NCBI RefSeq assembly: GCF_019665785.1
Contig: NZ_CP081149.1
Span: 1,674,001-1,738,000, forward strand
Direction: 5' to 3'
Source: Deefgea piscis
Lineage (GTDB): Bacteria > Pseudomonadota > Gammaproteobacteria > Burkholderiales > Chitinibacteraceae
DNA: 64,000 nucleotides
In this document: one piece after another, positions 29,683-57,839 of the stretch
Numbering within the stretch: position 1 is the stretch's first letter
Layout of the letters: the number at the start of each line of letters is the position of its first letter
Notes under the pieces: model-generated
Databases searched by the model: none
The model's input: the letters and a program-made list of their open reading frames with translations, nothing else
Told to the model about the DNA's origin: nothing
Position numbers and translations under genes: made by a program

Positions 29683-29707
29683 AAAATTTCTCTAATTGGG
29701 TGCGTAC

Positions 29708-39532: not shown

Positions 39533-39658
39533 GTAATTTAGCTGTTCATAGTAATTCATGGCGATTCAGCCAAAAAATTAAAATCTATATAAATCAATAT
39601 ATTGTGCCGTTTGTTGCGTCATACTGCCCCATTTTTCGCCATTCAAGCGCATACTCTT

Positions 39659-39702: not shown

Positions 39703-39712
39703 GTGCTGCAAA

Positions 39713-41290: not shown

Positions 41291-41664
41291 TTTACGGTTT
41301 CAATTAGGTTTTTTTTCAGGTAATGGTGGGTACTTGATTCGCTAATTTACCGTTGTAGCTTGCAGTCGATTGCAATAGGCCACCACTCAAAACGCCCTTT
41401 GCCTTTGGATTTGTTTTCCTCGGGTATGATTTCGTAGCAATTTATTTATAAGGACTCAGCTTATATACCTAGCTATTTTGTACAGGCATTAGATTTTGTA
41501 TCGGTGTATTTCTTTGTGAGGATATTTGACGAAAACAAAATAAAATTTGAACATTCGTTCTTTTTTTTCGTGTGCCGTAGTTCTTTTAAGCACTATCGAT
41601 ACTTTATGCGGATATAATATGCTTCATGACTCAAACCCAACAGTGGGTGAGAGTAAAAAAAGAA

Positions 41665-41711
41665 AGCCCTTGTAAGTCAGAAGAGCCTGAGAAACTCGAC
41701 TTACAAGGGCT
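41665..41711 (-). terminator. 14-bp inverted repeat, possible minus-strand terminator
   Basis: AGCCCTTGTAAGTC (41665-41678) and GACTTACAAGGGCT (41698-41711) are perfect inverted copies around a 19-base loop. Read on the minus strand, the stem is followed by TTCTTTTTTTAC. It could also be a regulatory RNA stem. Confidence 0.5.
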
Positions 41712-41774
41712 GTGATCCCCATCCTTTAGATGGGAAACCCGCAATCAACGCTAATTGATTTAGGGCTACATCGG

Positions 41775-41794
41775 CGGACTTCGCTAAAAGTCCG
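41775..41794 (+). other. Stem-loop in the int-alpA gap
   Basis: CGGACTT (41775-41781) pairs with AAGTCCG (41788-41794) with a 6-base loop, followed by a T-rich stretch. Possible weak plus-strand terminator or RNA element. Confidence 0.4.
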
Positions 41795-41820
41795 GCCTTT
41801 GTTCTATTTTGTACGGGCGT

Positions 41821-41845
41821 AAAAAAAGCCAAGACTATTGGCTTT
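41821..41845 (-). terminator. Minus-strand rho-independent terminator
   Basis: AAAGCCAA (41825-41832) pairs with TTGGCTTT (41838-41845). On the minus strand the stem is followed by an uninterrupted T tract (complement of 41821-41827). It implies leftward transcription from the alpA promoter region, for which no protein gene exists. Confidence 0.6.
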
Positions 41846-42090
41846 GCTGTCGCTTTCTGGGGACTGCGCCCGATACAAGGTAATTTGGTGCTAAAAGTTT
41901 TCTACAAAAACTATAAAATATAGTGTGATGCATAAGCGCGTAAAAATCAAGGCAATTGTATTTTTAAAAATACTCTTTTGTTGCTTTGAAGTGACTTTGT
42001 GGCGAAAGCCAGCTCGTCATATATGCGCCTATGTAACACCAAAAGCCCAAAGCTAATCAGGCGCTGATTGTCATTAGGAGTTATACCCTT

Positions 42091-42345
42091 ATGGCTATGA
42101 AAGCCCATGCTGTAAATCCAAGCCTGCAATCTGCATGCTCATCCCCCTTGTCAGTCGCAGGCATGCGTCCGCGTGTATTACGCCCACGCAATGCTGCTCT
42201 CTATCTGCAAGTTAGCAAATCCACTCTTGATCGTTTAGTCGCCGCTGGAAAATTGAAACCACCTTTTAAAAACGGCACTGCTATGGCGTTGTTTGATGTG
42301 GCCGACTTGGATCGTTATTTGGACGAAGTGATGGGGGCAGCATGA
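42091..42345 (+). CDS. AlpA-family DNA-binding regulator
   Basis: 84 aa. A small helix-turn-helix protein: VLRPRNAALYLQVSKSTLDRLVAAGKLKPP matches the AlpA/HTH_17 fold. In P4-like and CP4-57 elements AlpA controls integrase expression and excision. It overlaps the KilA-N gene by four bases. A second ATG at 42097 is equally possible. Confidence 0.85.
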   Translation: MAMKAHAVNPSLQSACSSPLSVAGMRPRVLRPRNAALYLQVSKSTLDRLVAAGKLKPPFKNGTAMALFDVADLDRYLDEVMGAA

Positions 42346-43010
42346 AAAATAAAATCATTACAGCAGATTTTAATAACGCGCTATTTCAATTCACAAAAGA
42401 TGGCTGGTTTAATGCAACAGACGCTGCTGAACGTTTCGGGAAACGTCCGAATGATTGGCTATCGCTGGATGAAACAACAAACTACATCGAGGCATTAAAT
42501 AGCTTCTCAAATACCAGCCAAAATGGTAATTGGATAAAAACAAGGCGCGGAAACAATGGCGGTACATGGCTACACCCGAAACTAGCGATTCGTTTTGCAC
42601 AGTGGCTAGATGTGCGGTTTGCCGTGTGGTGCGATAGTCAAATAGATGCGCTTATCCATGGTAAGTTTGCACCTGATGATTTAGCCGAAAGCCGACAATA
42701 TGCCGCAAGTGCTTATCGTTTAATGTGTCGCGTGCTGCAGATGATGCGTGCCAAGGAAGGCAAGCTCACCGAGCCGCACCACTACTGCAACGAATCAAAG
42801 ATAATCGGTTTCGCCATGACAGGTTGCTCTACCACCATTAATCGGGATGCGATTAGCTGCAAGTCTGAGCTGTCATTATTGGCGGAGGTACAGTTTTGCA
42901 ATGCCGACTTGATTGTGCAGGGATGGAGCTACAGCGAACGCAAAAGCGAGTTGTTGAATCTTGTGGCTGTGCACCGCAGCGCCAATGCATTAGCGAGTAT
43001 TGCCGCATGA
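42342..43010 (+). CDS. KilA-N domain protein
   Basis: 222 aa. The N-terminal 110 residues are a KilA-N DNA-binding domain: GWFNATDAAERFGKRPNDWL and GGTWLHPKLAIRFAQWLDVRFAVWCD. The C-terminal half is unassigned. KilA-N proteins are common in phages and phage-like elements; here it likely acts as a regulator. The start overlaps alpA by four bases (ATGA). Confidence 0.87.
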   Translation: MKNKIITADFNNALFQFTKDGWFNATDAAERFGKRPNDWLSLDETTNYIEALNSFSNTSQNGNWIKTRRGNNGGTWLHPKLAIRFAQWLDVRFAVWCDSQIDALIHGKFAPDDLAESRQYAASAYRLMCRVLQMMRAKEGKLTEPHHYCNESKIIGFAMTGCSTTINRDAISCKSELSLLAEVQFCNADLIVQGWSYSERKSELLNLVAVHRSANALASIAA

Positions 43011-43056
43011 TGCCAACCATTTCCATGAAACAGCGCCACTAATAGGAATTCCCAAA

Positions 43057-43218
43057 ATGAAAAACGACCATTTAAACAATGGGCGCGGGGATTCCTGCGT
43101 ATTAGATTCAGCTTTTAGCGGTTTATCGGCAGCGGATTATCGACTGATTGACGCGTTAGAAGTGGAGCACATCAACGATTTACAGCCCGAAGAGGTGTAT
43201 GTATGCGTGAATCATTGA
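43057..43218 (+). CDS. Small hypothetical protein of the element
   Basis: 53 aa, acidic, beginning MKNDHLNNGRGDSCVL and ending DLQPEEVYVCVNH. AGGAA lies eight bases before ATG 43057. It overlaps the primase gene by 16 bases, so it is probably translated in the operon. I do not recognise it. Confidence 0.55.
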   Translation: MKNDHLNNGRGDSCVLDSAFSGLSAADYRLIDALEVEHINDLQPEEVYVCVNH

Positions 43219-44294
43219 GCGATAAAGTAAAAAAAGCCGCACGGGGTAACTGGCCGTTAGTACTACTAACTTTGGGGGTTCCTGCTGCTGCGCTTGATGG
43301 CCGTAATTGCCCTTGTCCTGGATGTGGTGGTAAAGACCGTTTTCAATTCACGGTACGCGGCGCTGGTGCTGAGTATGGGCGCTTTGCGTGTCGCCATATG
43401 GATTCACAAGGCGGTGATGGTTTTGCTTTGGTGCGGCATATATTCGACCTAAATTTTCCCGAAGCAGTGCGAGCAGTAGCTAATGTGCTCGGTATCGACG
43501 TGCGACATGATGACGTAGTTGTCGAGCGAGTTGCCAAGACAGTTAACGGTTTGGTTGCCAAGCCAGAGGTAGCGGACAACACCAAGAAAGTGCAAAGGGT
43601 GTTTGATTTGTGCGCCACGCTCAGACCGAACAACATCACAGGCCTCTATTTGCAAAAACGTGGTATTGCGGCGAGTTATTGGCCTGAGCCACATACAAGC
43701 CCTTTACGCCATTGTGAGGCGCTGGACTATTGGCACACTGTCGATAACAAACCTGTGAAACTGGGCGCGTTTCCTGCACTGGTGGCGCGGATTGATAAGC
43801 CTGATGGGGCGGCGCTGGCTGGCATTCACCGCATTTATCTGAGCGACAAAGCCGAAAAGCGCGTCATTCGCGTGGCGACGGGTTCACCTGATCGCCCACA
43901 CATCAAAATTTTGGATAACAAGAAACTCCAAGCGGCACATGAAGGGGCAATCAAAGGCGCGGCTTGTCGTTTGTACCCAGTCGGCAACGATGGGCGCTTG
44001 GCGCTGACTGAGGGCATAGAAACCGCTTTAGCTGTGCGTTGCCTCACTGGGCTGGCGGTGTGGGCGTGCATCTCTGCTGGTGGGCTGAAATCGGTCGTGC
44101 TGCCTGATGAAGTACGCGAAGTACTGATCTATGCCGACAACGACCCCCCCGACGAGAGAGGCCGCAACATTGGCAAGGAAGCGGCTTACCTACTCGCAGC
44201 ACGAATGATCGAAGAAGGCCGCAAGGTGAAAGTGTTATTAGCACCGCAAGTGGGTACGGACTGGCTGGACTATCTGAACGATGAAATGAATTGA
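43203..44294 (+). CDS. P4-like zinc-binding/TOPRIM primase
   Basis: 363 aa. An N-terminal zinc-binding domain has Cys36, Cys38 and Cys41 in CPCPGCGGKDRF, and RFACRHMDSQGGDGFALV. A TOPRIM domain follows: LALTEGIETALAVR and VLIYADNDPPDERG. It corresponds to the primase half of the P4 alpha protein; the helicase is the next gene. The overlap with the DUF927 gene frame supports one replication operon. Confidence 0.88.
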   Translation: MRESLSDKVKKAARGNWPLVLLTLGVPAAALDGRNCPCPGCGGKDRFQFTVRGAGAEYGRFACRHMDSQGGDGFALVRHIFDLNFPEAVRAVANVLGIDVRHDDVVVERVAKTVNGLVAKPEVADNTKKVQRVFDLCATLRPNNITGLYLQKRGIAASYWPEPHTSPLRHCEALDYWHTVDNKPVKLGAFPALVARIDKPDGAALAGIHRIYLSDKAEKRVIRVATGSPDRPHIKILDNKKLQAAHEGAIKGAACRLYPVGNDGRLALTEGIETALAVRCLTGLAVWACISAGGLKSVVLPDEVREVLIYADNDPPDERGRNIGKEAAYLLAARMIEEGRKVKVLLAPQVGTDWLDYLNDEMN

Positions 44295-44305
44295 GGCAAA
44301 ACATA

Positions 44306-46138
44306 ATGAAAAACGAAAAAACCACACTACAAGATGCGGCAAGTTATGCAGCCGGCACCATCAAGCCACGTGCTTTTGATTTAGCCAAACCAGACCATAT
44401 CGCGCCGTTTGTGCCCATGGATAAAGTCGAGCTATTAGGCGAAATCGTGCCGTATTACGACTTTATCAACGGTGACATGATGTATATCGGCGCGGCTAAA
44501 AACAAAGAAGGCGTATTGACCCACACGCCGCCGCTGCGCTTATGTCGTGACCTGGAGGTAGTCGGGCAACGCGTAGACATTTACGGCGACCATTACCGCT
44601 TGATTCGCTGGCAAGATCCGATAACAGGTAACGAGCAAACCACCGCGATACCGAGCGCCATTATTGGCGAGCGTGAGGGTTTTGCATTGCTCAACAGCAA
44701 GGGCTTAGCGGTATCAAGTAGTAGAGCCAACAAAGAGCGATTAGCCGACTACCTGCAAACGCAAGGCAGTACCGAGCGATACACCATCGTGCAGCAAAGC
44801 GGCTGGCAGTGTGGCGCGTTTGTGCTGCCAACAGGCGAAGTAATTGGAGAGCCTGACACCCGACTGTTTTACCCTGCTGCTGCAACGTATCGGCCTGCAT
44901 TTACACCCAAAGGCACGGCGCAAACATGGCGCGATACAGTGGGCGCACTGGCGAAAGATAATCCGCTGGCAATGACGGCCGTAGCGTGTGCATTGGCTGG
45001 TGCTGTATTGGAGCTGATCGGTATGCGTGACGGTATCGGTCTGCATTTTCACGGAGGAACAACAAGCGGCAAATCAACGTGTGCTGATGTTTCAGCAAGC
45101 GTATGGGGCAAGCCAACCGAGATAATGCAGTCTTGGGATGGTACGAGTATCGGCCTGACTAATTCGGCTGAATTTGCTAATAGCATGATGCTGTACTTGG
45201 ATGAAATCGGCGCGGGTGATGCTAAGAAAATGGGCTGCATCATTTACACCATGCTCAACGGTGTATCACGCACCCAAGGCCGCAAAGATGGCGGCAACCG
45301 TGCCAAACGCCGGTGGCTGATGACACTGATTAGTACGGGTGAAGTGCCAATGAGTCAGTTTTTAACCGAAGGCGGCAACGTGGTACGTGGCGGGCAAGAG
45401 ATACGCATGCTGGATATTCCCGCCGATACGGGGCGCTATAAAGCGTTTGATTCCATTCATAACAGCGAGGGGGGCGGTGAATTTGCACTAGAACTGACCG
45501 AGGCCGCACGAAGCCATTACGGAACGATTGGGCGTGAGTTTGTAGCGTGCCTGATCGCCAACAAAGACAGCATCAAGGCACGGATTATTGCCGCAGAGAA
45601 TCGAATGCTGGGCGAACTTCCCGACCATGCTGCGCCACCAGTTCGACGTGCCACCCGCAAGTTTGCATTGCTGGCTGCAACGCTAGAAATGGCGGCTGAA
45701 TTAACAGGCTGGACAGAAGCGGAATCATTCGAGGCGGTGTGTTTGACTTGGCAACGCTGGCTGTCTGTGTTTGGGCTGGCCTCACGCGATGATGAACGAC
45801 TGATCGAACTCGCGAATGGTGTACTGGCTGCAAATCAATACGGGCGCTTTGTACTGCTACCGATTGCCGACAAAGAGCCAATCATGCAAAACATGATGGG
45901 CTACCGTCGAATTGGCGCGGATGGGGAAACGACCTTCTATGTTTTCCCGCACGCTTTCACTGGTGAAGTAATCAAAGGCAACGAAATCAAAAAAGCCTGC
46001 AAGGTGCTACATGAAGCTGGCATGTTAGATCGACCCAAAGGCCGCGATGCTTGGACAGTGACAATCGGGCGAGGCTATGGGCAAGGCTACAAAATGAAGC
46101 TGCGACCTTGTAAGAGTCAAGACGAAACTGAGCTTTAA
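44306..46138 (+). CDS. DUF927-family replicative helicase/ATPase
   Basis: 610 aa. The Walker A motif is HGGTTSGKST (residues 249-258) and MLYLDEIGAGDA supplies Walker B. A trailing winged-helix-like region ends in PKGRDAWTVTIGRGYGQGYK. DUF927 proteins accompany TOPRIM primases in satellites and integrative elements and probably unwind the element origin. ATG 44306 with GAGG upstream is chosen over the TTG at 44291. The candidate origin lies just downstream. Confidence 0.87.
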   Translation: MKNEKTTLQDAASYAAGTIKPRAFDLAKPDHIAPFVPMDKVELLGEIVPYYDFINGDMMYIGAAKNKEGVLTHTPPLRLCRDLEVVGQRVDIYGDHYRLIRWQDPITGNEQTTAIPSAIIGEREGFALLNSKGLAVSSSRANKERLADYLQTQGSTERYTIVQQSGWQCGAFVLPTGEVIGEPDTRLFYPAAATYRPAFTPKGTAQTWRDTVGALAKDNPLAMTAVACALAGAVLELIGMRDGIGLHFHGGTTSGKSTCADVSASVWGKPTEIMQSWDGTSIGLTNSAEFANSMMLYLDEIGAGDAKKMGCIIYTMLNGVSRTQGRKDGGNRAKRRWLMTLISTGEVPMSQFLTEGGNVVRGGQEIRMLDIPADTGRYKAFDSIHNSEGGGEFALELTEAARSHYGTIGREFVACLIANKDSIKARIIAAENRMLGELPDHAAPPVRRATRKFALLAATLEMAAELTGWTEAESFEAVCLTWQRWLSVFGLASRDDERLIELANGVLAANQYGRFVLLPIADKEPIMQNMMGYRRIGADGETTFYVFPHAFTGEVIKGNEIKKACKVLHEAGMLDRPKGRDAWTVTIGRGYGQGYKMKLRPCKSQDETEL

Positions 46139-46179
46139 GGATTTTGTCTTTAAGCACTTCTCGTATCCGCGTAAAAACC

Positions 46180-46403
46180 ACCGCATACACAGCACACCCG
46201 CATACATACCCTTCAAGGGCTTATATTTACTCGATTTTTCTGTATGCGGTGCGTATGCGTTTTTGCCTCTGTATGCGGTTGACCGTATTTGGTGTTTTTT
46301 AGTTAGCGCATACACCGCATTTTTTCAGACACTGCAGCATACAGCAAACCCAACAAACATGCGGTTTAGAGGAGTATGTATGCGGTAATGCGGTGCATGC
46401 GGT
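46180..46403. repeat. Iteron cluster (TGTATGCGGT), candidate replication origin
   Basis: Exact TGTATGCGGT at 46241-46250, 46270-46279 and 46377-46386, and its inverse ACCGCATACA at 46180-46189. Close variants at 46198-46207, 46251-46260, 46306-46320, 46358-46367, 46387-46394 and 46395-46403. AT-rich tracts lie between. The position, directly after the primase-helicase pair, suits an origin. Confidence 0.7.
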
Positions 46404-46852
46404 GTTTTTTGCTCTAGTATACGAAGTAGAAAAAACGCAGTTCAAGGGTGAACGAAATTTGTAAGGAAATAACCAGTCTATCGATTCGCCTTTAACAAAA
46501 ACCCCGCTCGGGGGATATATTCTTGCCGATTAGATTGCACCATTGCCAAGTGTTGGAACGGTATGAGCCTGAGAGATGTAACTTTTATCGCGTGATAAAA
46601 CGTGGGGACATTGAGTAAATAAATTTTAACTATCAGTGTAACAAGAATATGCGCTACGCATTACGCACCCTAATTGGGGGAGTTACTGCGTAGCGTTTCG
46701 ATAGTTGCCCGCCATGTGATGTAGTTATGTAGACCCCAACGATGGCAATCACGAAGTAACACCAAGCGAATTAGAAAACATTTTAGGTTGCATTGATCGT
46801 AACGGATTCAAACAAGACTAATTTCTAAATTTTAGGTGTCACTAATATCTAA
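46404..46852. other. Non-coding tail of both element operons
   Basis: Contains stem-loops TTTTATC/GATAAAA (about 46585-46602) and CGCTACGCA/TGCGTAGCG (about 46651-46700). It also has a stretch translating as ..DPNDGNHEVTPSELENILG.. ending at 46821 that lacks a start codon and may be a gene remnant. Confidence 0.4.
46497..46514 (-). terminator. Possible minus-strand terminator of the defence operon
   Basis: CCCC-GCTC-GGGG (46502-46513). Read on the minus strand it is followed by TTTTTG. It is short but GC-rich, and lies 340 bases beyond the last minus-strand gene. Confidence 0.45.
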
Positions 46853-47581
46853 TCAATACCCCCATTCCTCATGCCCCAGCATCCCCTGATTTAACTCGTC
46901 ACGCACAATACGCCAGTTACTTAGGTGCAAATCCATTAGCGCCAAAAATCGCTCGTTGTGGTGTCGCTCTAGTAGGTGCAGTAGTTCATGCACCACGATG
47001 TATTCGATGCATTGGTGGGATTTTTTGATCAGTTCGAGATTGAACCAAAGGCTGGCTGTTGCTGTGTTGCAGCTACCCCATTTGGTTTTCATTTTGCGAA
47101 TACCCCATGCTTTGGGGCTGACGCCGAGAATGACCTGCCACTTCTCAAGTAGATCATTGATGATGGCTCTTAGGTGCTGGCGATACCAAGCGCTGAGCAC
47201 ACGTTCACGTTGCTCTGGTGTTTTATCGGCTTTGACTAATAGTGTTAGTCGATTTTTGCCATTCAGTTGAATACGGCCAGCGCCACTGTGATTTTCTACT
47301 CGAAGTCGAAATGGCCGACCCAAGAAGTAATGCGTTTCACCCGATACTAATTTGCGCACTGATTGACGTGGTTGCGCTTTGAACTTGGCGCGTTGGCGCT
47401 TAATCCAACCTAGTTTAACAATCACGGCCAAACGCACAGCGTCGTCAGTGACTGCCAATGGCGCAGCAACACGTACCCGTCCTTGCGGCGGGTACACACC
47501 TAGATGCAGGTTTTTAATGTCCTTGCGGTCAATCTCAACGGTGATGCCGCCAACGATAATCCGATGCGGCTTAGTATTCAT
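46853..47581 (-). CDS. YgjP-like DUF45 zinc metallopeptidase
   Basis: 242 aa. The zincin motif HELLHLLERHHNERF gives HExxH plus a downstream His, and KWGSCNTATASLWFNLEL is the conserved WGSC stretch of the YgjP/DUF45 (M48-like) family. Such genes are often attached to type I restriction operons; the role there is unknown. It starts inside the hsdR 3' end (11-base overlap), so it is part of that operon. Confidence 0.87.
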   Translation of the reverse strand: MNTKPHRIIVGGITVEIDRKDIKNLHLGVYPPQGRVRVAAPLAVTDDAVRLAVIVKLGWIKRQRAKFKAQPRQSVRKLVSGETHYFLGRPFRLRVENHSGAGRIQLNGKNRLTLLVKADKTPEQRERVLSAWYRQHLRAIINDLLEKWQVILGVSPKAWGIRKMKTKWGSCNTATASLWFNLELIKKSHQCIEYIVVHELLHLLERHHNERFLALMDLHLSNWRIVRDELNQGMLGHEEWGY

Positions 47582-50500
47582 GTTGATGCTTGGCCAATTC
47601 CAATAACATCGTCACCAAAGCCTCAATTGCATCGGAATCTTGCGGCAGGTAGTCCGGTGTTGATTCAGCCGCCACACCTTCCGCAACCAAAGCATAGGCC
47701 TCTAAGGTAGTACGCAGCGCAATACGGATTTTCTTTTGCTTGATGGTGCTATTACGAAAATCATCTTGTTTATTCTTCAAAATGACCTTGTGAATATGCA
47801 GTGCCAAGGCTTCGTTTTGATGCAAATTATCAAATAAAGCGCGTTTTGCCGATGTGTCTAAACTCGTTGGATAACTCGTTCCGCCACTTGGTTGCGCAAC
47901 TTTCTTTGCAAGCGCCACGACTTCCGCCAAGTATTCTTGATAAGCAATCGCACCGTTACGGCGTTGCTCGATCAATGCATCAAGCAAGGACGACATGGTT
48001 TCATAATACTTTGGATTGATCGGTGTTTCATCGATGATCAGTTTACGAACGTTATTTTCGATTGTTTCCGCCATGCTGTTTTCATTACTACGCAGACCTT
48101 TTGGTACAGCCGCCAGCGCATCGGTGCCGCGCTCTACAATCAATTGAATGAGCGGCATATCGTCAAAATCTGAAATCGGTGTGCTTTCTTCTGCGCGGAT
48201 ATAGCTATCGATCAAATGCCGCATGCCAGGCTCGTACAGCTTCATGTCGATAGCGTCGCCACTGTACATCTTGATTTCTTGACGTAGTTTTTCGTAAAAG
48301 TCGACTTCACCCTTAATCGAAGCAATCTCTTTGGGGCTATAGCCTGCCTCAGCCAATTCATTGGCGACATTGGCGTAGCTGCGAACTAATGACGAGGTGA
48401 GCTTATACAGCGCCAGTCGTTTAGCTTCATGCAACTTAAGTTCTTCAGCATCGCCAGGCTTATTACCGCAGAAATAATGCTGATAAGCCGTACCATCTTT
48501 TGGCGGTGCAACGGGCTCGCACAGCGCTTTGATGGCTTCGCGGGCATCTTGTAAATCGGATTTCGCCATACTCAGGCGGTCTTCAAGCAGGCCTTTCACA
48601 TCGTCTTGGTCGTAGCCATCGAGCGCGCCACTGGTGTAGTCACCGATTGAATCTTCAAGGCGTTTAAACAAGTCTTGGTAATCAACGATAAAGCCATATT
48701 GCTTATCATCGCCATCCAAACGATTGACGCGGCAAATTGCTTGGAATAAACCGTGGTCGCGCATCTTTTTGTCGATATACAAATACGTGGCCGATGGAGC
48801 GTCAAAACCCGTTAGCAGTTTATCAACCACGATCAGTAGGCGCATTTGCCCTGGCTCATCGATGAATTTTTTCTTCACTTCTTTTTCAAATAACTCAGGG
48901 TCTTTACCCGCCAGCATGGTGTTGTAGATGTCGTATTGGCGCAGTTTTTCCGTTAAGCCTTCACCGGTCGATTCGCCTTTAATATTGGCGGGTGATGGTT
49001 TGTAGCTAGTCACAATCGCGCATTGCTCACCCATACCGGCTTTAGCAAATAGCTCGTAGCATTTGCATGCCTCGAAAATACTACTCGTCACCAGCATTGC
49101 ATTGCCGCGACCACTGGCTAAACGATCCCGTACTTCCATATCCATCAGAATGTCGCTAACGATTTTCTCTAAGCGTGATTGGCTCGACAGCACTTTTTTC
49201 ATCGTGCCCCAACGCGCTTTAAGTTGCGCTTTGGCAAGATCAGTCAGGCCTTTGGTTTTTGCGGCAAACCATTGGTCAATCTTGGCGGTAGACGTAATGC
49301 TCTGATCAATATCCCGCGCTTCATAGCGCAGATCGAGCACCACACCATCTTTTACCGCTTCGTTGAATTTGTAGGTGTGAATATAGCTACCGAAAATCTC
49401 AATCGATTTTTGTTTGTCGGCTTTGAGTAGTGGGGTACCAGTAAAACCGATGAACAAGGCATTCGGTAGAATCGACTTCATCGCCTTATGTAATTCACCC
49501 GATTGCGTGCGGTGGCATTCGTCGACAAAGACGTATAAATCGCCTTTGGCAGCAAAGTCGGTCGGTAGGCTTTTTTTGACTTCTTCGATGTAGGCGGCAA
49601 TATCGCCAACTTCTTCGCCTTCTTCTTTTCCGCCAAACTTATGAATCAGCGAGCACATCAGCCACGGGCGCGTATCGTTCAATTGCGCGATTAGCTCAGC
49701 GCCACTTTTGGCACGGCTGATTTCTTCATTCACGCCTTTGAATACTTTTTCGATCTGCTCATCCAGCTCGGTACGGTCGGTGATAATCAATATGCGGGCA
49801 GGAGGTATATTTTCATGTATCCATTTGGCCAGCCATACCATAGTCAGGCTTTTACCCGAACCTTGCGTATGCCAAATAATCCCGCCTTCGCGGCGCTGGA
49901 TATGGCGTTGTGCCGCACGCACGCCAAAGTATTGGTTTTGGCGGCAGAACTTTTTCGTACCCGAATCAAACACCACAAAATCGTGAATCAACTCCAGAAA
50001 GCGCGTCTTATCGCACAGCAGCAATAAATGTTGATCGAGTCGGTTAAAGTGTTGCTGCGCGGGTGGGCAGTCTTCTTTCCATTCGAGGTAATACTTTTCT
50101 TTGGTTTGGATCGTGCCGTAACGCAGGCCTTGCGTATCGCTACCGGCCATGACTAATTGCATGGTGGAGAAAAATGGTTCGATGAACTCTTTGCGCTGGT
50201 TATCCAGATTCTGGCGGATGCCTTCAGATACTGATACCGTTGAACGTTTTAGCTCTAGCACGCCCAATGCAATGCCATTCACAAACAGCACAATATCGGG
50301 GCGTTTAGGGCTAGGACGTGATTGACCAACAGCCGGGTTGGCGACTTTGACCGTCACTTCTTCAGCAATCCCAAAATCATTATTCAGCGGATTTTTCCAA
50401 TCAATCAGCCACACCGTTACGGTGTTTTCGCCGATGTCGGGTTTCACCTTCACGCCATAGCGCAATAGCTCATACACCGCCTTATTACGGTCATATAGCG

Positions 50501-50738
50501 AAAGCTGGGCGCTATTCACTGCCTTATCAAATTCGTATAAGGCTCGCTTAATCAGCGAATCAGTAATACCCTGTTTGGCTAGCCATTGGGTGAGCGAAGC
50601 GCTATCTACATTGCGATTGCGACCGTTATCTTCATGGCGCTTTTCCCAATTACCCAGATAAGTGTATTTAAGTTGGTCGCGAAACAGCGCCACAACACGG
50701 TTTTGGGTAAGGCGTTCTCGTTGACCAACATCACTCAT
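47571..50738 (-). CDS. hsdR: Type I restriction enzyme R subunit
   Basis: 1055 aa. An N-terminal PD-(D/E)xK nuclease has RPDIVLFVNGIALGVLELKR (Asp148, Glu162, Lys164). The translocase has Walker A in WHTQGSGKSLTM (residues 290-300), VDECHRTQ as the DEAD-like motif II and LLTGFDAPSATYLY later. With HsdM and HsdS it makes the ATP-dependent complex that cuts unmodified DNA. A 200-base AT-rich gap separates it from the preceding gene, so it may have its own promoter. Confidence 0.95.
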   Translation of the reverse strand: MSDVGQRERLTQNRVVALFRDQLKYTYLGNWEKRHEDNGRNRNVDSASLTQWLAKQGITDSLIKRALYEFDKAVNSAQLSLYDRNKAVYELLRYGVKVKPDIGENTVTVWLIDWKNPLNNDFGIAEEVTVKVANPAVGQSRPSPKRPDIVLFVNGIALGVLELKRSTVSVSEGIRQNLDNQRKEFIEPFFSTMQLVMAGSDTQGLRYGTIQTKEKYYLEWKEDCPPAQQHFNRLDQHLLLLCDKTRFLELIHDFVVFDSGTKKFCRQNQYFGVRAAQRHIQRREGGIIWHTQGSGKSLTMVWLAKWIHENIPPARILIITDRTELDEQIEKVFKGVNEEISRAKSGAELIAQLNDTRPWLMCSLIHKFGGKEEGEEVGDIAAYIEEVKKSLPTDFAAKGDLYVFVDECHRTQSGELHKAMKSILPNALFIGFTGTPLLKADKQKSIEIFGSYIHTYKFNEAVKDGVVLDLRYEARDIDQSITSTAKIDQWFAAKTKGLTDLAKAQLKARWGTMKKVLSSQSRLEKIVSDILMDMEVRDRLASGRGNAMLVTSSIFEACKCYELFAKAGMGEQCAIVTSYKPSPANIKGESTGEGLTEKLRQYDIYNTMLAGKDPELFEKEVKKKFIDEPGQMRLLIVVDKLLTGFDAPSATYLYIDKKMRDHGLFQAICRVNRLDGDDKQYGFIVDYQDLFKRLEDSIGDYTSGALDGYDQDDVKGLLEDRLSMAKSDLQDAREAIKALCEPVAPPKDGTAYQHYFCGNKPGDAEELKLHEAKRLALYKLTSSLVRSYANVANELAEAGYSPKEIASIKGEVDFYEKLRQEIKMYSGDAIDMKLYEPGMRHLIDSYIRAEESTPISDFDDMPLIQLIVERGTDALAAVPKGLRSNENSMAETIENNVRKLIIDETPINPKYYETMSSLLDALIEQRRNGAIAYQEYLAEVVALAKKVAQPSGGTSYPTSLDTSAKRALFDNLHQNEALALHIHKVILKNKQDDFRNSTIKQKKIRIALRTTLEAYALVAEGVAAESTPDYLPQDSDAIEALVTMLLELAKHQHEY

Positions 50739-50938
50739 GAAAAAATCTCGAAATTAGTATTAAATTTACACCTAACGATTAAGTGTACTTCCGCATCAAA
50801 GATGATGAGAGGATTATTCTGTGACTAGAGTAATTGATAGAAAATATATTTTAGCTTCAAGGTAAAGTGATTTGTTTCTATAGGTTTTATCTGTGTCGCC
50901 AAACCAATTATCGATAGAGTTTTTTAACAAAATAAAAA

Positions 50939-51856
50939 CTATGGTTTACTTTTTTTGATGGTAGCTATTTCTTGGTTGGGTGAAATTGCATCTAAATTGC
51001 TTTCTTGGTTAGCTTGGTTGGTGCTTGCCATTAGTATAAAAATTTTTATTATTTTATATAAAATATCTAATTCTGCAGAATTTACGGCAGTTTCTACTAC
51101 CTCTTTTAGTAACTCTATTTCGTCTTTATTTAGTGATTCTTTTTGTATTCTTTTGGCCGCTATAGTTTTTGCTTCTCTGATTTCGAAAATTTTCTTTTCT
51201 ATTTGTAACTTTTCGTCTTTGAATTCTGCGGAGTTAATAAAGGCAAGTAGCATTTGAGTGTTTTTCGCATCTAGTGTATGTAATTTTTTGTTTGAAACCA
51301 TCCACAGGGCGAAATTATCTAACTCATCGGCGTGGCAGTGAGAGAAAAGAGTTTCCATTAAAGTTGAAGGTTGAACAGTCCGATTGTCACTTAATAAATC
51401 ATCAATCAATTTTCTCAAGGTTAGATTTTCATCGTATGTAAAAAGATTTCCTGTTTTTTTTCTTTCATCAAATTCTTCTTGAGTAAGCGCTATGATCTCT
51501 TTCAGGCACTCCTCTGAACGTTGAAACCCTAGTTTATATTCATCTGATTTGAAATGGTCATTTAGGTTAAATGCTACTCTGCTATAGATATAAGGTTCAT
51601 AATTGTAGTTTCTAACACTGTCTTTTTGGTACTCTTTAATTGCTATTGAATTGCCGTTTTTTCGTTTAAATTCAATTAATACGATTGCTGAAATATCAAA
51701 TTTTGCGATCAAATCACCAGAAACCTTATCGGCTTTCGTATCGTTCTGTTGATTAGCATAAGGAAATGATGCTGACCATTTTATAGGGGAGTGTTTCTCT
51801 TCCAAGTATCTTGGAATAGAAACCATCGCGCCAACTTGAACATCATTTTCATTCAT
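50939..51856 (-). CDS. Unknown protein with a D..ExK nuclease-like signature
   Basis: 305 aa, not recognised. SGDLIAKFDISAIVLIEFKRK gives Asp48, Glu62 and Lys64, with the same spacing as the HsdR nuclease motif, so a PD-(D/E)xK fold is suspected. Residues about 120-150 and 215-265 are charged, Lys/Glu-rich and probably coiled-coil or helical. The gene is much more AT-rich than hsdR or hsdM, suggesting separate acquisition. An ATG at 51856 is preceded by GGGGTGGG and is 14 bases after the NucS-like gene. Confidence 0.7.
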   Translation of the reverse strand: MNENDVQVGAMVSIPRYLEEKHSPIKWSASFPYANQQNDTKADKVSGDLIAKFDISAIVLIEFKRKNGNSIAIKEYQKDSVRNYNYEPYIYSRVAFNLNDHFKSDEYKLGFQRSEECLKEIIALTQEEFDERKKTGNLFTYDENLTLRKLIDDLLSDNRTVQPSTLMETLFSHCHADELDNFALWMVSNKKLHTLDAKNTQMLLAFINSAEFKDEKLQIEKKIFEIREAKTIAAKRIQKESLNKDEIELLKEVVETAVNSAELDILYKIIKIFILMASTNQANQESNLDAISPNQEIATIKKSKP

Positions 51857-51870
51857 GCTTATTCCCACCC

Positions 51871-52797
51871 CTAATTTGATTTTTGTAATTTAAAGCTAAT
51901 CTGATACCGATAAAAGTCCACATTCCCAACTGCCGCCAAAGCTCTGCGAATACGTTGGTCGTCTTCTAGCGCGATGATTACGCCGCGCACAGACTGATCG
52001 GCTTCGGCTAGCTCGCCCATCACAAAGCCCATATAGCGCAGCACTTGGCCGACGACGGCATCGCTGGCTCGGCCTTTTTTTAGCTCAACCACCAGCAATT
52101 GTTTTTTGTCCTTGCTGATCGCCAATATATCCATCGGGCCGGTGTCGCTTGGGTATTGTTGGCCGATAGTTTCGCCATCCTCAGTGTAAATATCGTAATC
52201 CTTGCCCAGCTCGGTTTGCGACCAGTTGGCGACGAGGAAATCTTCGAGATGTTTTTCAAGTGCAAATGCAGTCTGGTCTTCAACGGCAGGGTCGGTGGCA
52301 ATCAATGTTGGGCTAATGTGGCCTGAGAGCAGCGCTTCGAGTTCCGTGGCGTATTTACTGATCGTACTCACCGTACCAATCGAGCCGCAGGAATTGCGCA
52401 GCGCATCGCTCATTGCAGTGCGTGGGATTTCTGCAAACCAGCGCACAGCGCGGCGATGCGGCAGGATTTCACCCGCCAGATATTGATAATCAGACAGCAC
52501 CTCACCCACGCGATATGTGCCCTGCCCATCGGGGCAGAGCACGATATCACCGTTTTGAATACCTTTCGATACAGTCCACAGCGCACCGCAAGCCAAACCC
52601 GCTGCCACTTTGCTCTTACTAGGGTTCAGCGCAAGCCATTGCGGTACAAAGGCGTGATTAAACTCGCGCCAATCTTCACTTAGCTTAGTTTGCAGATCTT
52701 GGTGGATTCCAAAATTGGCCCCAATGAAGTTGCCAGCAAAACATTCTGCAGCGTACATTGAGTTGCGGCCTAGCATGACACGGTAGTAGTTTTTCAT
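51871..52797 (-). CDS. NucS/Mrr-like endonuclease with N-terminal reader-like domain
   Basis: 308 aa. The C-terminal domain carries a PD-(D/E)xK core, GPMDILAISKDKKQLLVVELKKG (Asp223, Glu238, Lys240), followed by RYMGFVMGELAE, like NucS/Mrr restriction proteins. The N-terminal 150 residues (GNFIGANFGIHQDL, QNGDIVLCPDGQGTYRVGEV, HRRAVRW) resemble the PUA/EVE-like domains fused to modification-dependent nucleases; this is inference from pattern. It sits 14 bases after the HNH gene in the operon. Confidence 0.78.
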   Translation of the reverse strand: MKNYYRVMLGRNSMYAAECFAGNFIGANFGIHQDLQTKLSEDWREFNHAFVPQWLALNPSKSKVAAGLACGALWTVSKGIQNGDIVLCPDGQGTYRVGEVLSDYQYLAGEILPHRRAVRWFAEIPRTAMSDALRNSCGSIGTVSTISKYATELEALLSGHISPTLIATDPAVEDQTAFALEKHLEDFLVANWSQTELGKDYDIYTEDGETIGQQYPSDTGPMDILAISKDKKQLLVVELKKGRASDAVVGQVLRYMGFVMGELAEADQSVRGVIIALEDDQRIRRALAAVGNVDFYRYQISFKLQKSN

Positions 52798-52811
52798 GGT
52801 TTCAGCTCATC

Positions 52812-53621
52812 TCAAGAAGGTCGCTTGCCATAAAGTTTTACTCTCTTCTCCAGCTCTTCAATTGATAAAGGTGGATTTTGTTGATGTAGCATGGCGTGAC
52901 AATTCGGGCACACCGGTCTTAAGTCATTAATCGGGTCAATAACGTATTCTTTCCCGATTGAGGAAATGGCTTTCAGATGGTGAACATGTATATATTTCTT
53001 GCCGATATCACCATAAAAAAGCTCGAAGTGAAAATTGCAGACTGCGCACTGATGACCCCAGTGTTTCAGGCAAGCCTTGCGCGCTTCAGGGTTCCGCTCA
53101 TAAGCGTTAACCATCACGCGGGTCACACTACCTTCAATTAGCTCAGCGGAAGATGGATTTTCAATTTCATCGGGTAAAGTAAAAACAACTGATCTTGGAT
53201 TAAGTTGAGCGTTAAGTACTGCTAAAACATCCGCTGAGATCGCTGTGGATAAAGAACCACCTTGGGTGCAAAAATGACGCTTAAAGTTTGACCAGCCTTT
53301 ATTGCTGCCATTTTCAGGAGTCTCAGGCAGTTGAATGCTTAGTTCTTCTTCATTTAAAGCTAAGAATGGCGTGCATTCGATAACCGGAGTCAGTTTGACG
53401 CGATATTCACGGTCTTTATGAGTCGGGGAGTCGTATGTTTCGGTAATAGCAAACAACCCGCAAAGTTCAAACGTACTATGATTCTTGAGCTTTTGGATAA
53501 TAAAAATCTGATCACCAATACTGATCTTTTTTAATTTACTTTTTGTTTTAACGCCATAACCGCCAAGATAGTCAAACGAGGAGTCATTTTCAGGGCCGTG
53601 ATAGGCAAAGTAATATGTCAT
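52812..53621 (-). CDS. HNH endonuclease (McrA-like)
   Basis: 269 aa. The C-terminal HNH domain is complete: CAVC (192-195), HVHHLKAIS (His214/215), DPINDLRPVCPNCHAMLH with the Asn and two further Cys, so a zinc-bound beta-beta-alpha-metal nuclease. The first 130 residues form a separate domain with YLGGYGVKTKSKLKKISIGDQIFIIQK that may be a base-modification reader. It lies 18 bases after hsdS. Confidence 0.85.
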   Translation of the reverse strand: MTYYFAYHGPENDSSFDYLGGYGVKTKSKLKKISIGDQIFIIQKLKNHSTFELCGLFAITETYDSPTHKDREYRVKLTPVIECTPFLALNEEELSIQLPETPENGSNKGWSNFKRHFCTQGGSLSTAISADVLAVLNAQLNPRSVVFTLPDEIENPSSAELIEGSVTRVMVNAYERNPEARKACLKHWGHQCAVCNFHFELFYGDIGKKYIHVHHLKAISSIGKEYVIDPINDLRPVCPNCHAMLHQQNPPLSIEELEKRVKLYGKRPS

Positions 53622-53639
53622 AAGTCTTGTAGCTTTAAT

Positions 53640-54917
53640 TTAAATTAAACGTGTTTTGCCCGTCAGCAATTCTTGCATCATGCCTTGCTTGAGCGTGCGG
53701 GTTTTGTCGCGGCGGGCTTCGAGGGCGGTGATTTCGGCATCCATGTCGGAGAGAATGGTCACGATAGCGATTTGTTCTGGCAATGGCGGGCAAAAAATCT
53801 CTAAATTTCTAAGCTCAGTCAAACCAATTCGCTTCCTTGTTGAACCTGTCCCTGCATTTTCTGCTCGGGATCTAAAATCTGGGTAATTGATCGCTAAGAA
53901 AATAAAGTATGTATTAAATTTTTTTGGATTCACGACTAAGCGAATTCCATCAGAACACATTAAATAACGTTCGTGATGTGGCGGAATAATGCAGGCACGA
54001 GCAACAGGATCACCCATTTTCGAGAGAATGATTTCCCCCGGATAAATGTTGCAGCTAAGTAATTCATCAGCTTTTTTACTCGTAGTAAAAACCTTAGAAT
54101 CATTATGAAACTCACCATCACCAATATTTTGAAGCTGGATTATTCGTACGCCATCATCGATATAATCGGATGATTTTAGATTTGAACCAAATGGGCCACC
54201 AGTAAAACTCCATTTCTGATTTGAATCTGCAATATCACCAAGAGCAACATTAACCCACTCCCCAACAAACCCCGGCAGGCGGGTTTGGGCGGTTAGGAGT
54301 TGTTGCATGGCGGCTTGTTTGAGGTCGCGTTTTTTGGCGATCAGCGCGTCGAGTTTGGCTAGCAGCGTATCCACATCGGACAGCGCAGCTACAATCGCGT
54401 TTTGTTCATGAATAGGTGGTAATGCAATCCAAAAATCATGAATATTTTTTAGAGTTAATCCTGGCTTACTTTGGCCAGATTGACTTGCTAGAATCTGCAA
54501 ATTACCAGATGAATTTGGTGAAAGAAAATAGCATATAAATTTACCTAAAACAGGTGATGACAAACGAACAAGTCCTACGTGCTGGCTAATATAAGCCTCG
54601 CCTAGCTCTTGTTCGACAATAGCGACATTACCGACACTATTACCTGTTATGGTAATTAGCAGGTCTAAATTTTTTAGTTGTGTTCGACTACCTTCTGAGT
54701 TTTTTGGGGGATTTACAAATTGATTATCAGTGAAATCAAGTCTCCCATCTCGCACATTCTGGCTGCGAACGAATAAAGCGCCACTATCTGAATAGTATTT
54801 CGCCCACCCACGAGAACCACTCGTGATGAGCTCTGCAAGTTGACTTAAACATGCAATTTCCCAATCCTCCGGAATCACCCCAATCTCGGTTTGCTTGCAA
54901 CCCGCTTTCAGTTCCAT
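53640..54917 (-). CDS. hsdS: Type I restriction-modification specificity subunit
   Basis: 425 aa with two target-recognition domains. Each is followed by a related conserved helix: PPIHEQNAIVAALSDVDTLL to LLTAQTRL, and PPLPEQIAIVTILSDMDAEI to LLTGKTRL. Each TRD sets one half of the bipartite recognition sequence. It overlaps hsdM by ten bases. Confidence 0.94.
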   Translation of the reverse strand: MELKAGCKQTEIGVIPEDWEIACLSQLAELITSGSRGWAKYYSDSGALFVRSQNVRDGRLDFTDNQFVNPPKNSEGSRTQLKNLDLLITITGNSVGNVAIVEQELGEAYISQHVGLVRLSSPVLGKFICYFLSPNSSGNLQILASQSGQSKPGLTLKNIHDFWIALPPIHEQNAIVAALSDVDTLLAKLDALIAKKRDLKQAAMQQLLTAQTRLPGFVGEWVNVALGDIADSNQKWSFTGGPFGSNLKSSDYIDDGVRIIQLQNIGDGEFHNDSKVFTTSKKADELLSCNIYPGEIILSKMGDPVARACIIPPHHERYLMCSDGIRLVVNPKKFNTYFIFLAINYPDFRSRAENAGTGSTRKRIGLTELRNLEIFCPPLPEQIAIVTILSDMDAEITALEARRDKTRTLKQGMMQELLTGKTRLI

Positions 54918-57301
54918 GTGAACCCCATCTGTTGCAAGTGGGCATCGACTTTGGTGCTGAGGCTTTCGACTTCATCCAGTAACGTTGGCAGCGGTGTGGC
55001 GTAGCGTTCGGCTAGTTGGCGCACGCGCCCCGTTAGTGTTTGGCTGACGCGGTCGAGTTCGCTTTGGATGGCGGTTTCAATCGCCACCAGCCATTTATCG
55101 TCGACGACGATATCGCACACGTCGAGCTGGCTAATACGCCGATACTGCGCCATCACGAGCGTGTCGAGGGCTTTTTCAGCGTCTTTGACTTGTTTGCTTG
55201 CTGCGGTTTCTGCATCTGCCAGTTGCGTCCAACGTTTTAGCGCGGCGATTTCTTCTTTGGCTGTCGTATCGTGGGCAATCACTTTGAGGCGGTCTTTGAC
55301 GCTTTTGGCGCTGAGTTTGCCTTTTTCGGTTTTCGCTTCGACCAGCAGGCCATCGTCACCTGCGTGCTCTTCTTCAAATTCTTCCCGCGCTTGCGCGGCA
55401 GCATCGCGGGTGGATTCTAGCTCGGTGATTTGCGCGGCTTCCGCTGCAAAATAGCGTGCAATGATTAAGTCTTTGGGCAGCAAATCGAGATTGGGTTTGC
55501 CATCGCTCAGGGCTTGCCAGCCATCGGCGGCGACCAGATACACATCGTCTTGCATGGATTGCGCCCAATAATCCATCAGGTGCTGATACACATCGTAAGG
55601 CTGTATGAGTGGCGTCTTTTCAAACGCTGCGAGCAATTGCTCGGCTAAAGTGTCGTTGAGCGTTTTTGGGTGGGTGATGCCAGGGGTAATCGCTTTGAGC
55701 TGTTGCGCAGCGCTGCTTTGCCATTGGCGGAAAGTGGCGTGGGCAGCATCGTTAAAGGCAATAAATTCAGGATGACTAAAAATCGTCGGTTTAATATCGG
55801 CAATCGCAACTTTTAAATCGTAATAGCCAGGGTATTGGCTTGTAGCCATTAGCTGATTTTGGATAGAAGGGAATACCTGCCAGTAGGATTTCATCGCATC
55901 CAAATCACGCTGCGGAATACCGCCGCGCAAATGCGCGGCGATGTCTTGCAGGTCTTCAGCCTCAGAGGTGTCGATATAACGCGGTAGATTCAGGTTGTAA
56001 TCGTTGGCGGCGATTTCCGCCAATGGCACGAGGCGAGCGTATTGCTCGGTCTCGGCTAGCTTGGTGAAGGTATCGACGATTTTGTGGATGTCTTGCTCAC
56101 GCAGGCGGTGTTTGTTGCCGTCTTTCACAAAGCCCTTGCTGGCATCGACCATAAAGATGCCTTTCCGCGCGGCGGCGTGCTCTTTATCCAGCACGATGAT
56201 ACAAGCGGGAATGCCGGTGCCGTAAAACAAGTTGGCAGGCAGGCCGATAATGCCTTTGATATAACCACGGCTGACGATCTCTTGGCGAATGCGGCCTTCG
56301 GCACCACCACGGAATAACACACCATGCGGCAAAATCACTGCGGCTTTGCCGGTGGATTTGAGCGAGGCCAGCATGTGCAGCAGAAAGGCGTAATCGCCAT
56401 TTTTCTCGGGTGGCACGCCATATTCAAAACGACCAAACTCGTCTTCCGCAGGGTTAAAACCATTGCTCCACGCTTTGGTCGAAAACGGTGGATTGGCCAC
56501 GATGAAGTCGTGACGCTTGAGCTGGCCGCTTTGTTCCTTAAAGTACGGCGTAGAGAGCGTGTTGTCTTGCCAGATTTCCGCCGTTGGGCAGTCGTGCAAA
56601 ATCATATTCATCTTGGCCAAGGCGCTGGTGGCGTTATCCATTTCTTGCCCATAGAGCGCGAGGTCTAGCCCCTTTGCGCCTTTGGCTTCATCGTGCGCTT
56701 TAAGCAGCAAAGAGCCCGAGCCGCAGGTTGGGTCGTAAATCGTTTGATCGCCGCTAGTGGCTTCCGACAAATTCAATACTTTCGCCATAATGCGCGACAC
56801 TTCGGCGGGAGTATAAAACTGGCCTTTGGATTTGCCCGATTGAATAGAAAATTGGCGCATCAGAAATTCGTAGGCATCGCCTAGAATATCGTCACCCTCG
56901 GCGCGATTACTGGCGAAGTTCAAATTAGGATTGTCGAAAATACTAATCAGATTGGATAGGCGCTCGACCATATCCTTGCCCTTGCCGAGCTTGTCTGGAT
57001 CATTAAAGTCGGCAACGTCGATCACGCCTTTGAGTTCATTGGCCTCTGCCAGAGCGGCGATAATGATATTGATCTTCTCGCCGATTTCTTTATCGCCCTT
57101 GAGCGCGACCATGTCGGCAAAGCTACCGCCAGTGGGGATTTCAATCAGCGAATCCCTTTGCCCCGCGTATTTATCCGAAACGTATTTCACGAACAATAAA
57201 ACGAGAATGTAATCTTTGTACTGGCTGGCATCCATCCCACCACGCAATTCGTCGCACGATTTCCAGAGGGATGAATAAAGTTCAGATTTCTTGATGGCCA
57301 T
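54908..57301 (-). CDS. hsdM: Type I restriction-modification methyltransferase subunit
   Basis: 797 aa. N-terminal HsdM helical domain, then a SAM-binding motif YDPTCGSGSLLL (residues 189-200) and the N6-adenine catalytic NPPF (270-273). From about residue 560 a long charged C-terminal extension (AAQAREEFEEEHAGD, KDAEKALDTLV) is probably coiled coil and makes it longer than classical HsdM. The ATG at 57301 (MAIKKSELYSSLW) fits HsdM N-termini better than the start at 57373. First gene of the defence operon. Confidence 0.94.
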   Translation of the reverse strand: MAIKKSELYSSLWKSCDELRGGMDASQYKDYILVLLFVKYVSDKYAGQRDSLIEIPTGGSFADMVALKGDKEIGEKINIIIAALAEANELKGVIDVADFNDPDKLGKGKDMVERLSNLISIFDNPNLNFASNRAEGDDILGDAYEFLMRQFSIQSGKSKGQFYTPAEVSRIMAKVLNLSEATSGDQTIYDPTCGSGSLLLKAHDEAKGAKGLDLALYGQEMDNATSALAKMNMILHDCPTAEIWQDNTLSTPYFKEQSGQLKRHDFIVANPPFSTKAWSNGFNPAEDEFGRFEYGVPPEKNGDYAFLLHMLASLKSTGKAAVILPHGVLFRGGAEGRIRQEIVSRGYIKGIIGLPANLFYGTGIPACIIVLDKEHAAARKGIFMVDASKGFVKDGNKHRLREQDIHKIVDTFTKLAETEQYARLVPLAEIAANDYNLNLPRYIDTSEAEDLQDIAAHLRGGIPQRDLDAMKSYWQVFPSIQNQLMATSQYPGYYDLKVAIADIKPTIFSHPEFIAFNDAAHATFRQWQSSAAQQLKAITPGITHPKTLNDTLAEQLLAAFEKTPLIQPYDVYQHLMDYWAQSMQDDVYLVAADGWQALSDGKPNLDLLPKDLIIARYFAAEAAQITELESTRDAAAQAREEFEEEHAGDDGLLVEAKTEKGKLSAKSVKDRLKVIAHDTTAKEEIAALKRWTQLADAETAASKQVKDAEKALDTLVMAQYRRISQLDVCDIVVDDKWLVAIETAIQSELDRVSQTLTGRVRQLAERYATPLPTLLDEVESLSTKVDAHLQQMGFTWN

Positions 57302-57743
57302 GTTTTTACTTTTATTAAGGTGTGCTTTTGGCAGGGATAGTGCGAAGGCATAAACGCAGGCGCAACGCCGCATTCAGCCGAAAAAAGATGAGGGCTATGA
57401 TACCCTGCTGACGAGGGACTTTCTATTGAATTAGCCTCACCTTCGTTGATTTCAGTGTATAAGCTTGTAATGCAACTAATCAACGCGCGGCAAGAATATT
57501 TTATTGGATTAAGTTAGTGAACTGATTTTTGTTGGCCGACTGCGGCTTGTCATGTCGTCTAACACGGTCGTTTCAACCAAATATTGATGGTATTTTTTGG
57601 TGTAGGTGGGGAATTAGATACAGTCGTGCATAAATGATTGGGTATGTTTTTGAGTTGATACCGATTTGCTGGCTGTATGGGTGTGTGTATGGGTGTGGCG
57701 TGTTTGTTGCTGGTTGTGCTGCTGGTGCTGTAGCTTTGTTTTA
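57302..57743. other. Upstream region of the defence operon inside the right end
   Basis: No gene seen. It must hold the hsdM promoter (not clearly identifiable by eye) and includes the right arm-type repeats at 57674-57697. Confidence 0.5.
57674..57697. repeat. Two tandem TGTATGGGTGTG repeats, right-end arm sites
   Basis: Exact copies at 57674-57685 and 57686-57697, same orientation as the three left-end copies and about 50 bases inside the right attachment repeat. Confidence 0.75.
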
Positions 57744-57811
57744 GCTAAGTCGTTGATTTGATTGGTGCGCCCGACAGGAATCGAACCTGTGACCCTCAGT
57801 TTCGGAAACTG
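57744..57811. repeat. Right attachment repeat within tRNA-Arg
   Basis: The intact partner of 39465-39532 (67/68 identity). It covers the tRNA 3' half from the anticodon stem outward plus 19 bases past the CCA. Confidence 0.93.
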
Positions 57812-57839
57812 ATACTCTATCCAACTGAGCTACGGGCGC
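57763..57839 (-). tRNA. tRNA-Arg (CCG), integration target
   Basis: A complete cloverleaf on the minus strand: acceptor GCGCCCG/CGGGCGC, anticodon stem TCAGT/ACTGA with loop TTCCGAA (anticodon CCG), T arm TTCGATT, CCA encoded. Its 3' end faces the element, so integration rebuilt a whole gene here and left a partial copy at 39484-39532. Confidence 0.95.

Follow-up and report, generated by a model that had tools for sequence, protein, structure and literature searches.

Predicted reader-nuclease fusions embedded between hsdS and hsdR in a type I restriction operon of Deefgea piscis

A type I restriction operon with the organization hsdM-hsdS-[slot]-hsdR-YgjP was found in a 64,000-nucleotide stretch of the Deefgea piscis genome (contig NZ_CP081149.1, positions 1,674,001 to 1,738,000), here called the window. 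Two of the genes in the slot, the interval between hsdS and hsdR, encode nucleases with a predicted base-reading domain, EVE-NucS and EVE-HNH, which probably strike phages whose modified DNA escapes the type I enzyme.

Organization of the operon

The operon spans positions 46853 to 57301 of the window and comprises seven co-directional open reading frames (ORFs), listed here in the order of transcription.

54908-57301, minus: hsdM, N6-adenine methyltransferase with a long C-terminal part (PDLC03027, E = 0; Pfam N6_Mtase and HsdM_N)
53640-54917, minus: hsdS, with two target-recognition domains (Methylase_S in two stretches; PDLC03098)
52812-53621, minus: EVE-HNH protein, cargo position A (residues 1-141, predicted EVE-type fold; residues ~171-250, McrA-like HNH)
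51871-52797, minus: EVE-NucS protein of family PDC-S02 (residues 1-160, predicted EVE/YTH-type fold; residues ~170-302, NucS/EndoMS-type PD-(D/E)XK; Pfam NucS_C)
50939-51868, minus: orphan protein of 305 or 309 amino acids (aa), cargo position B (no family match)
47571-50738, minus: hsdR, type I restriction and translocation subunit (PDLC03044, E = 0; TIGR00348; HSDR_N, SWI2_SNF2, and T1R_D3)
46853-47581, minus: YgjP-like (DUF45/M48/SprT-type) metallopeptidase, core partner of hsdR (YgjP-like family; HELLH)

An earlier, sequence-only reading of this DNA had described seven minus-strand genes in this order, and all of the ORFs and families were located as described, the third middle protein being without a family. 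The intergenic gaps it had given were also recovered (-10, 18, 14, 2, 200, and -11 bases), except that the gap of 2 before the orphan becomes the reported 14 only with an ATG start for the orphan, as in its 305-aa database copy. The hsdM start was taken to be the in-frame ATG at 57301; a longer ORF begins at 57373, and the PADLOC type I M model aligns from residue 25.

Family matches cover most of the length of hsdM, hsdS, hsdR, and the YgjP-like peptidase. The catalytic motifs of hsdM (DPTCGSG and NPPF) are preserved, as are those of hsdR (D148..ELK, GSGKS, and DECH), YgjP (HELLH), and NucS (D..ELK). As judged from sequence, hsdM, the hsdS with two target-recognition domains, and hsdR with its PD-(D/E)XK domain and SF2 motor are a complete type I set. 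The genome is a single contig of 3,575,158 bases, within which the full-length match of the operon is unique. The G+C content is 47 to 52% in hsdM, hsdR, YgjP, and NucS, 42 to 43% in the HNH gene and hsdS, and 33% in the orphan. Scanning for promoter and terminator consensus sequences gave no excess over shuffles.

The proteins encoded in the slot

The NucS-like protein is predicted to consist of an EVE/YTH-type (PUA superfamily) reader domain joined to a NucS nuclease. Structural alignments of its model to 5gke and 2vld begin at residue 170 or 180, and residues 1 to 160 match EVE/YTH chains. The protein shares the C-terminal PD-(D/E)XK domain with the mismatch endonuclease EndoMS/NucS and appears to differ from it in its N-terminal half, modelled as an EVE/YTH-type reader; its gene context is one of defence. 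It matches at full length (residues 1 to 306; PDLC04824 and PDLC04799; E = 4.9e-158) PDC-S02, a PADLOC phage defence candidate family; according to two papers such families were found by guilt-by-embedding, and PDC-S02 has the status of a candidate family only. In at least one survey, of rumen genomes, the family is abundant, with 2715 PDC-S02 annotations (PMC13356809).

For the HNH protein, the predicted structure has an EVE-type (PUA superfamily) fold at the N terminus, followed by the HNH nuclease. VcaM4I is described as an EVE-HNH endonuclease that reads 5-methylcytosine (5mC) and 5-hydroxymethylcytosine (5hmC) (PMC7897488), and the modelled window protein resembles it in having both an N-terminal EVE-type fold and an HNH domain, but its N-terminal domain falls in a separate sequence group. 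This domain is 37 to 56% identical to those of the aligned relatives P0003 to P0010 and 13 to 22% identical to those of the other 39, and Pfam EVE matches 18 of the 48 members of the alignment at an E value of ≤0.1. Relatives of the HNH protein were found in 8 of 369 genomes of the class at an E value of ≤1e-20 (the window included), mostly through the HNH part alone; for the seven in other genomes, no hsd match was found within the available flanks of 0.1 to 1.5 kb. The search of viral contigs with the HNH protein gave nothing, or weak matches only.

The third protein has no match in Pfam or PADLOC families, and searches of proteins, the 369 class genomes, viral contigs, and plasmids yielded only the orphan itself. 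It had been considered a nuclease from a D..ExK motif, which in its bare form arises in 4,739 of 5,000 shuffles of the orphan's own sequence; two stricter patterns, picked after the sequence had been viewed, arise in 34 and 149 of 5,000. Since the bare motif is expected by chance and no homologue was found, the orphan cannot be called a nuclease from its sequence. The sequence-only reading of three extra nucleases is thus secure for the HNH and NucS-like proteins but not for the third, and the predicted reader-plus-nuclease folds likewise concern those two, which were the ones modelled.

Recurrence of EVE-NucS between hsdS and hsdR

NucS loci were located by means of six peptide patterns, so that mostly relatives at least 55% identical were recovered. 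Among the 56 loci, a usable relocated NucS match was obtained in 54, and 41 of these had 3 kb of sequence on both sides. Twenty-two of the 54 relatives have hsdS upstream and hsdR downstream. These 22 loci cover 10 phyla; YgjP follows hsdR in every one, and in 10 of them the slot holds no other ORF of at least 70 aa. A same-strand hsd match lies within 3 kb in 32 of 54 loci (26 of the 41 with 3 kb present on both sides), versus any hsd match in 0 of 20 control windows; the controls were fixed positions, two each in 10 single-contig genomes, all from the sample of the window's phylum, while the NucS loci span more phyla. NucS was present in 4 of 41 relative genomes (the window's own included) and in 1 of 398 genomes sampled from the phylum (the window's own).

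On a NucS tree of 49 rows, slot residence requires 11 changes, compared with 16.2 when labels are shuffled (0 of 500 shuffles as low), and at least six changes are forced by well-supported branches, from which it follows that EVE-NucS moved into and out of the slot repeatedly. The bootstrap of this tree had not settled; eight loci with missing or short ORFs (L007, L011, L051, L054, L056, L058, L059, and L060) were excluded, and one row, L027, is the longer of two NucS-like ORFs, distant and on a long branch. In two loci, NucS adjoins an hsdR that belongs to a different type I subtype. Over 22 to 24 loci, distances of NucS covary with those of hsdM (r = 0.56; partial, 0.44 given hsdR), the partial value of NucS with hsdR being -0.03 given hsdM; for YgjP and hsdR, r is 0.78 and the partial value 0.59.

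NucS relatives were also found in 26 plasmid records, with coverage of at least 80% in seven. The one of these seven that was viewed, an Acinetobacter plasmid, has the order S-M-S-NucS-Abi-R-SprT, and the relative on a Paenarthrobacter plasmid has no type I neighbours. Carriage of NucS by phages was considered and rejected, as none was found in viral contigs or phage records. The literature examined did not describe NucS/DUF91 proteins between hsdS and hsdR; a preprint cited for the PDC families (10.1101/2024.01.29.577857) lay outside that scope, and we do not claim that the arrangement is unpublished.

Individual loci showed further features. In Andreprevotia chitinilytica (L007/L149), EVE-NucS persists with an open frame in a type I locus that has decayed, with hsdR reduced to a piece of ~84 to 94 aa and hsdM split into two ORFs. 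A family of 243- to 266-aa proteins stands beside EVE-NucS in four slots, between hsdS and NucS in three (L008, L012, and L048) and between NucS and hsdR in the fourth (L028); the L008 protein, the sole member tested, matches PDC-S44. EVE-NucS and the cargo of the RRDM island (see below) occur together in Aeromonas cavernicola (L044, 6497-14664), with the order hsdS-NucS-DarT-DarG-hsdR-YgjP. In Humidesulfovibrio (L011, 10001-10921), NucS is present as two ORFs of 192 and 74 aa, through either a broken gene or an assembly error.

Type I subtype and contents of the slot

Among the Escherichia coli matches of hsdR, the one in the RRDM island of strain E2348/69 ranks first; others are more identical but cover less of the query. 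The island of this enteropathogenic E. coli (EPEC) strain is described as RptR, a type I restriction-modification system, DarTG2, and an M48 peptidase, the hsdS-hsdR interval being a known cargo site (PMC12255303). The window operon has the same order, with hsdM, hsdR, and the peptidase 56, 59, and 48% identical, and in both systems genes are embedded between hsdS and hsdR. The cargo there is DarTG2, whereas here it is the EVE nucleases, and the RptR repressor encoded upstream in the island has its best tblastn match in the window at an E value of 4.7, elsewhere. The operon is therefore not an RRDM island but belongs to the same type I subtype.

At an E value of ≤1e-100, hsdR was found in 24 of the 369 class genomes, one of them being that of the window. 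Twenty of the other 23 were examined (G051, G085, and G292 were left out), and 18 loci were readable as hsdS..hsdR. Their slots contain a same-strand ORF of at least 85 aa in 14 cases, NucS in 1, and ORFs on the opposite strand only in 2; 1 is empty. YgjP lies downstream in 15, a 16th being that of G151. Over both sets of loci, slot cargo includes Fic, Zeta toxin, DarT, DarG, GmrSD-type, Schlafen/AlbA, PIN, DUF2971, and DUF4917 proteins, and the PADLOC models met in it include PDC-S31, S44, S06, S21, and HEC-05; of 44 cargo proteins from outside the window, 20 were scanned with Pfam and 10 with PADLOC. Four annotated plasmids with the same core carry in the slot a hypothetical protein, two DUF262 proteins, a GIY-YIG protein, or, in Euhalothece, nothing; the Euhalothece plasmid has three extra genes between hsdM and hsdS.

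The sister locus of Deefgea chitinilytica has kept the core (hsdM 77%, NucS 85%, hsdR 80%, and YgjP 70% identical; hsdS 37%) and has a DUF2971 protein at the position of the HNH gene and a 169-aa protein plus a Fic protein at that of the orphan. The ORFs of the 56 NucS-seeded and 20 hsdR-seeded loci included no relative of the HNH protein or the orphan, and neither protein matched any other cargo protein. Unmatched in the other loci examined and replaced in the sister species, these two genes are cargo. Of the three middle genes, NucS alone recurs, and the idea that they form one conserved set was rejected. The sequence-only reading had also held that genes found only here and in varying places would be passengers, which fits the HNH gene and the orphan and not the recurring NucS.

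In each of the six annotated type I loci viewed (L151 and L173 to L177), hsdR is followed by an M48/SprT-type peptidase gene. Together with this, the YgjP-hsdR covariation suggests that this type I subtype has a genuine partner in YgjP. Its role may be proteolytic control of HsdR, by analogy with the ClpXP-dependent restriction alleviation described for EcoKI (PMC4231737).

Proposed mechanism and alternative explanations

In the mechanism that we propose, HsdMSR would methylate host adenines at its own site and cut unmethylated DNA, as expected from the families. The hsdS-hsdR slot has gathered extra genes, two of them for predicted single-protein fusions of reader and nuclease. EVE-NucS and EVE-HNH most likely act by flipping out a modified base, reading it, and cutting nearby, the base being probably a modified cytosine (5mC, 5hmC, or a glycosylated form). 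Acting independently of HsdR, they would still strike modified-DNA phages that escape the type I enzyme. A precedent is Vibrio cholerae VPI-2, in which TgvAB, encoded within a type I operon, is reported from experiments to carry out modification-dependent (type IV) restriction (PMC11411939). That type IV-in-type I arrangement is the idea of the sequence-only reading; the described TgvAB is a GmrSD-related pair, while the window candidates are single proteins. The sequence-only reading had envisaged restriction of unmodified DNA combined with attack on modified DNA. With predicted readers before both nucleases, the combination is a sound hypothesis for these two proteins, at the level of folds; a fixed three-nuclease system is not.

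Several points weigh against this explanation. It is drawn from fold and family. The EVE/YTH assignments of both proteins come from predicted models with middling Z scores of 9 to 12, and caution is due, as a shared fold alone demonstrates no function. Pfam EVE does not match the window HNH protein, and a profile comparison of its N-terminal domain with EVE-type relatives gave a weak probability of 63 (52 with two more rows) versus 15 for the control. A YTH-like pocket could read N6-methyladenine (6mA), the expected product of the operon's own HsdM. Finally, in 21 of the 54 NucS loci no hsd match lies on the same strand within 5 kb, and NucS is present in only 1 of 18 hsdR-seeded slots, so that the association is recurrent, not obligatory.

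An explanation that we consider unlikely, if the least so of the alternatives, is that hsdS and hsdR flank a transcribed landing site prone to recombination, in which HNH, NucS, and the orphan are independent hitch-hikers that have a promoter and a mobile element in common but no functional tie to the type I enzyme. The wide variety of slot contents, the lack of relatives of HNH and the orphan in the other loci examined, the low G+C content of the orphan relative to hsdM, hsdR, YgjP, and NucS, and the different genes at both cargo positions in the sister species are all consistent with it. EVE-NucS, however, recurs in the slot across 10 phyla, as its sole ORF in nearly half of the slot-resident loci, entered or left it many times, covaries with hsdM even given hsdR, and also stands beside another type I subtype. 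It is less probable still, and in our view doubtful, that the type I complex acts as a guardian that keeps the embedded nucleases inactive until a phage anti-restriction protein disables it and releases them, as for PrrC with EcoprrI. PrrC is described as encoded inside a type I locus and sensing type I inhibition (PMC12707154), and the window nucleases likewise lie inside the operon. No PrrC or RloC model appeared among the Pfam, PADLOC, and NCBIfam matches of the three middle proteins, however, so that a PrrC-like guardian by homology was rejected; the many EVE-NucS genes without hsd neighbours indicate that EVE-NucS need not be under HsdMSR control, and the reader folds point to DNA sensing.

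About equally improbable is that EVE-NucS is an accessory subunit that works with the type I enzyme, for example by reading whether its sites are methylated or by processing the breaks that HsdR makes. Such a role is favoured by the hsdM-hsdS-NucS-hsdR-YgjP operons without further cargo found in several phyla, by the covariation of NucS with hsdM, and by the YTH-like fold, since some YTH domains read 6mA, that of Thermococcus gammatolerans McrB being described as sensing it (PMC7897488). Against it, the NucS-hsdR covariation is gone once hsdM is taken into account, while that of YgjP with hsdR stays, many EVE-NucS copies have no hsd neighbours, and the subtype is usually without NucS. It is likewise improbable that EVE/YTH-NucS is no type IV enzyme of its own but a functional partner that recurs with type I enzymes and reads whether the DNA engaged by HsdMSR is adenine-methylated or modified; if true, hsdM-hsdS-EVE/NucS-hsdR-YgjP would be a five-part enzyme using absent self marks and present foreign marks.

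The integrative element carrying the operon

The operon lies inside an integrative element (39465-57810) in a tRNA-Arg gene, with the following features outside the operon.

39465-39531, no strand: attL, a 67-bp copy of the tRNA-Arg 3' end (66/67 match to attR)
39602-41290, plus: tyrosine integrase (Phage_integrase, Arm-DNA-bind_3; phrog_1 integrase)
42091-42345, plus: AlpA/excisionase-like helix-turn-helix protein (HTH_17; phrog_66 excisionase/regulator)
42342-43010, plus: KilA-N domain protein
43203-44294, plus: primase-like protein (Toprim_3, DUF7146)
44291-46138, plus: DUF927 primase/helicase-like protein
57744-57810, no strand: attR, within the 3' end of tRNA-Arg(ccg) (tRNA at 57763-57839, minus)

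The att repeats are 18,279 bp apart. In two genomes of the same genus (G369 and G373) the site is empty, crcB adjoining the tRNA and cytochrome gene with no ORF of at least 70 aa between; in two others (G370 and G372) the same tRNA is occupied by different insertions, whose integrases are related (48 and 52% identical). From the att repeats, the integrase and primase genes, and the empty sites, we conclude that a P4-like integrative element carries the operon as cargo. Like a P4-like phage satellite, the element is integrated in a tRNA gene and has an integrase, a regulator, and a primase/helicase; no structural gene was found among the five element genes, to which the scan was limited. Elsewhere in the window, positions 16230 to 32545 form a block of higher G+C content (~0.51 to 0.57) with ORFs mostly on the minus strand, possibly another island.

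Significance

The PDC-S02 family, EVE-HNH enzymes, and the peptidase partner were already known, as was the embedding of defence genes in type I operons. Added here are the locus with the element around it, the recurrence counts, and, for this PDC-S02 subfamily, the interpretation of the N-terminal domain as EVE/YTH. The D. piscis operon offers a concrete, clonable locus with two different predicted EVE-reader nucleases, where a single operon would detect foreign base modification as well as the lack of self-methylation. As a candidate family that has repeatedly entered the hsdS-hsdR interval in 10 phyla, PDC-S02 (EVE-NucS) is a good choice for biochemical testing.

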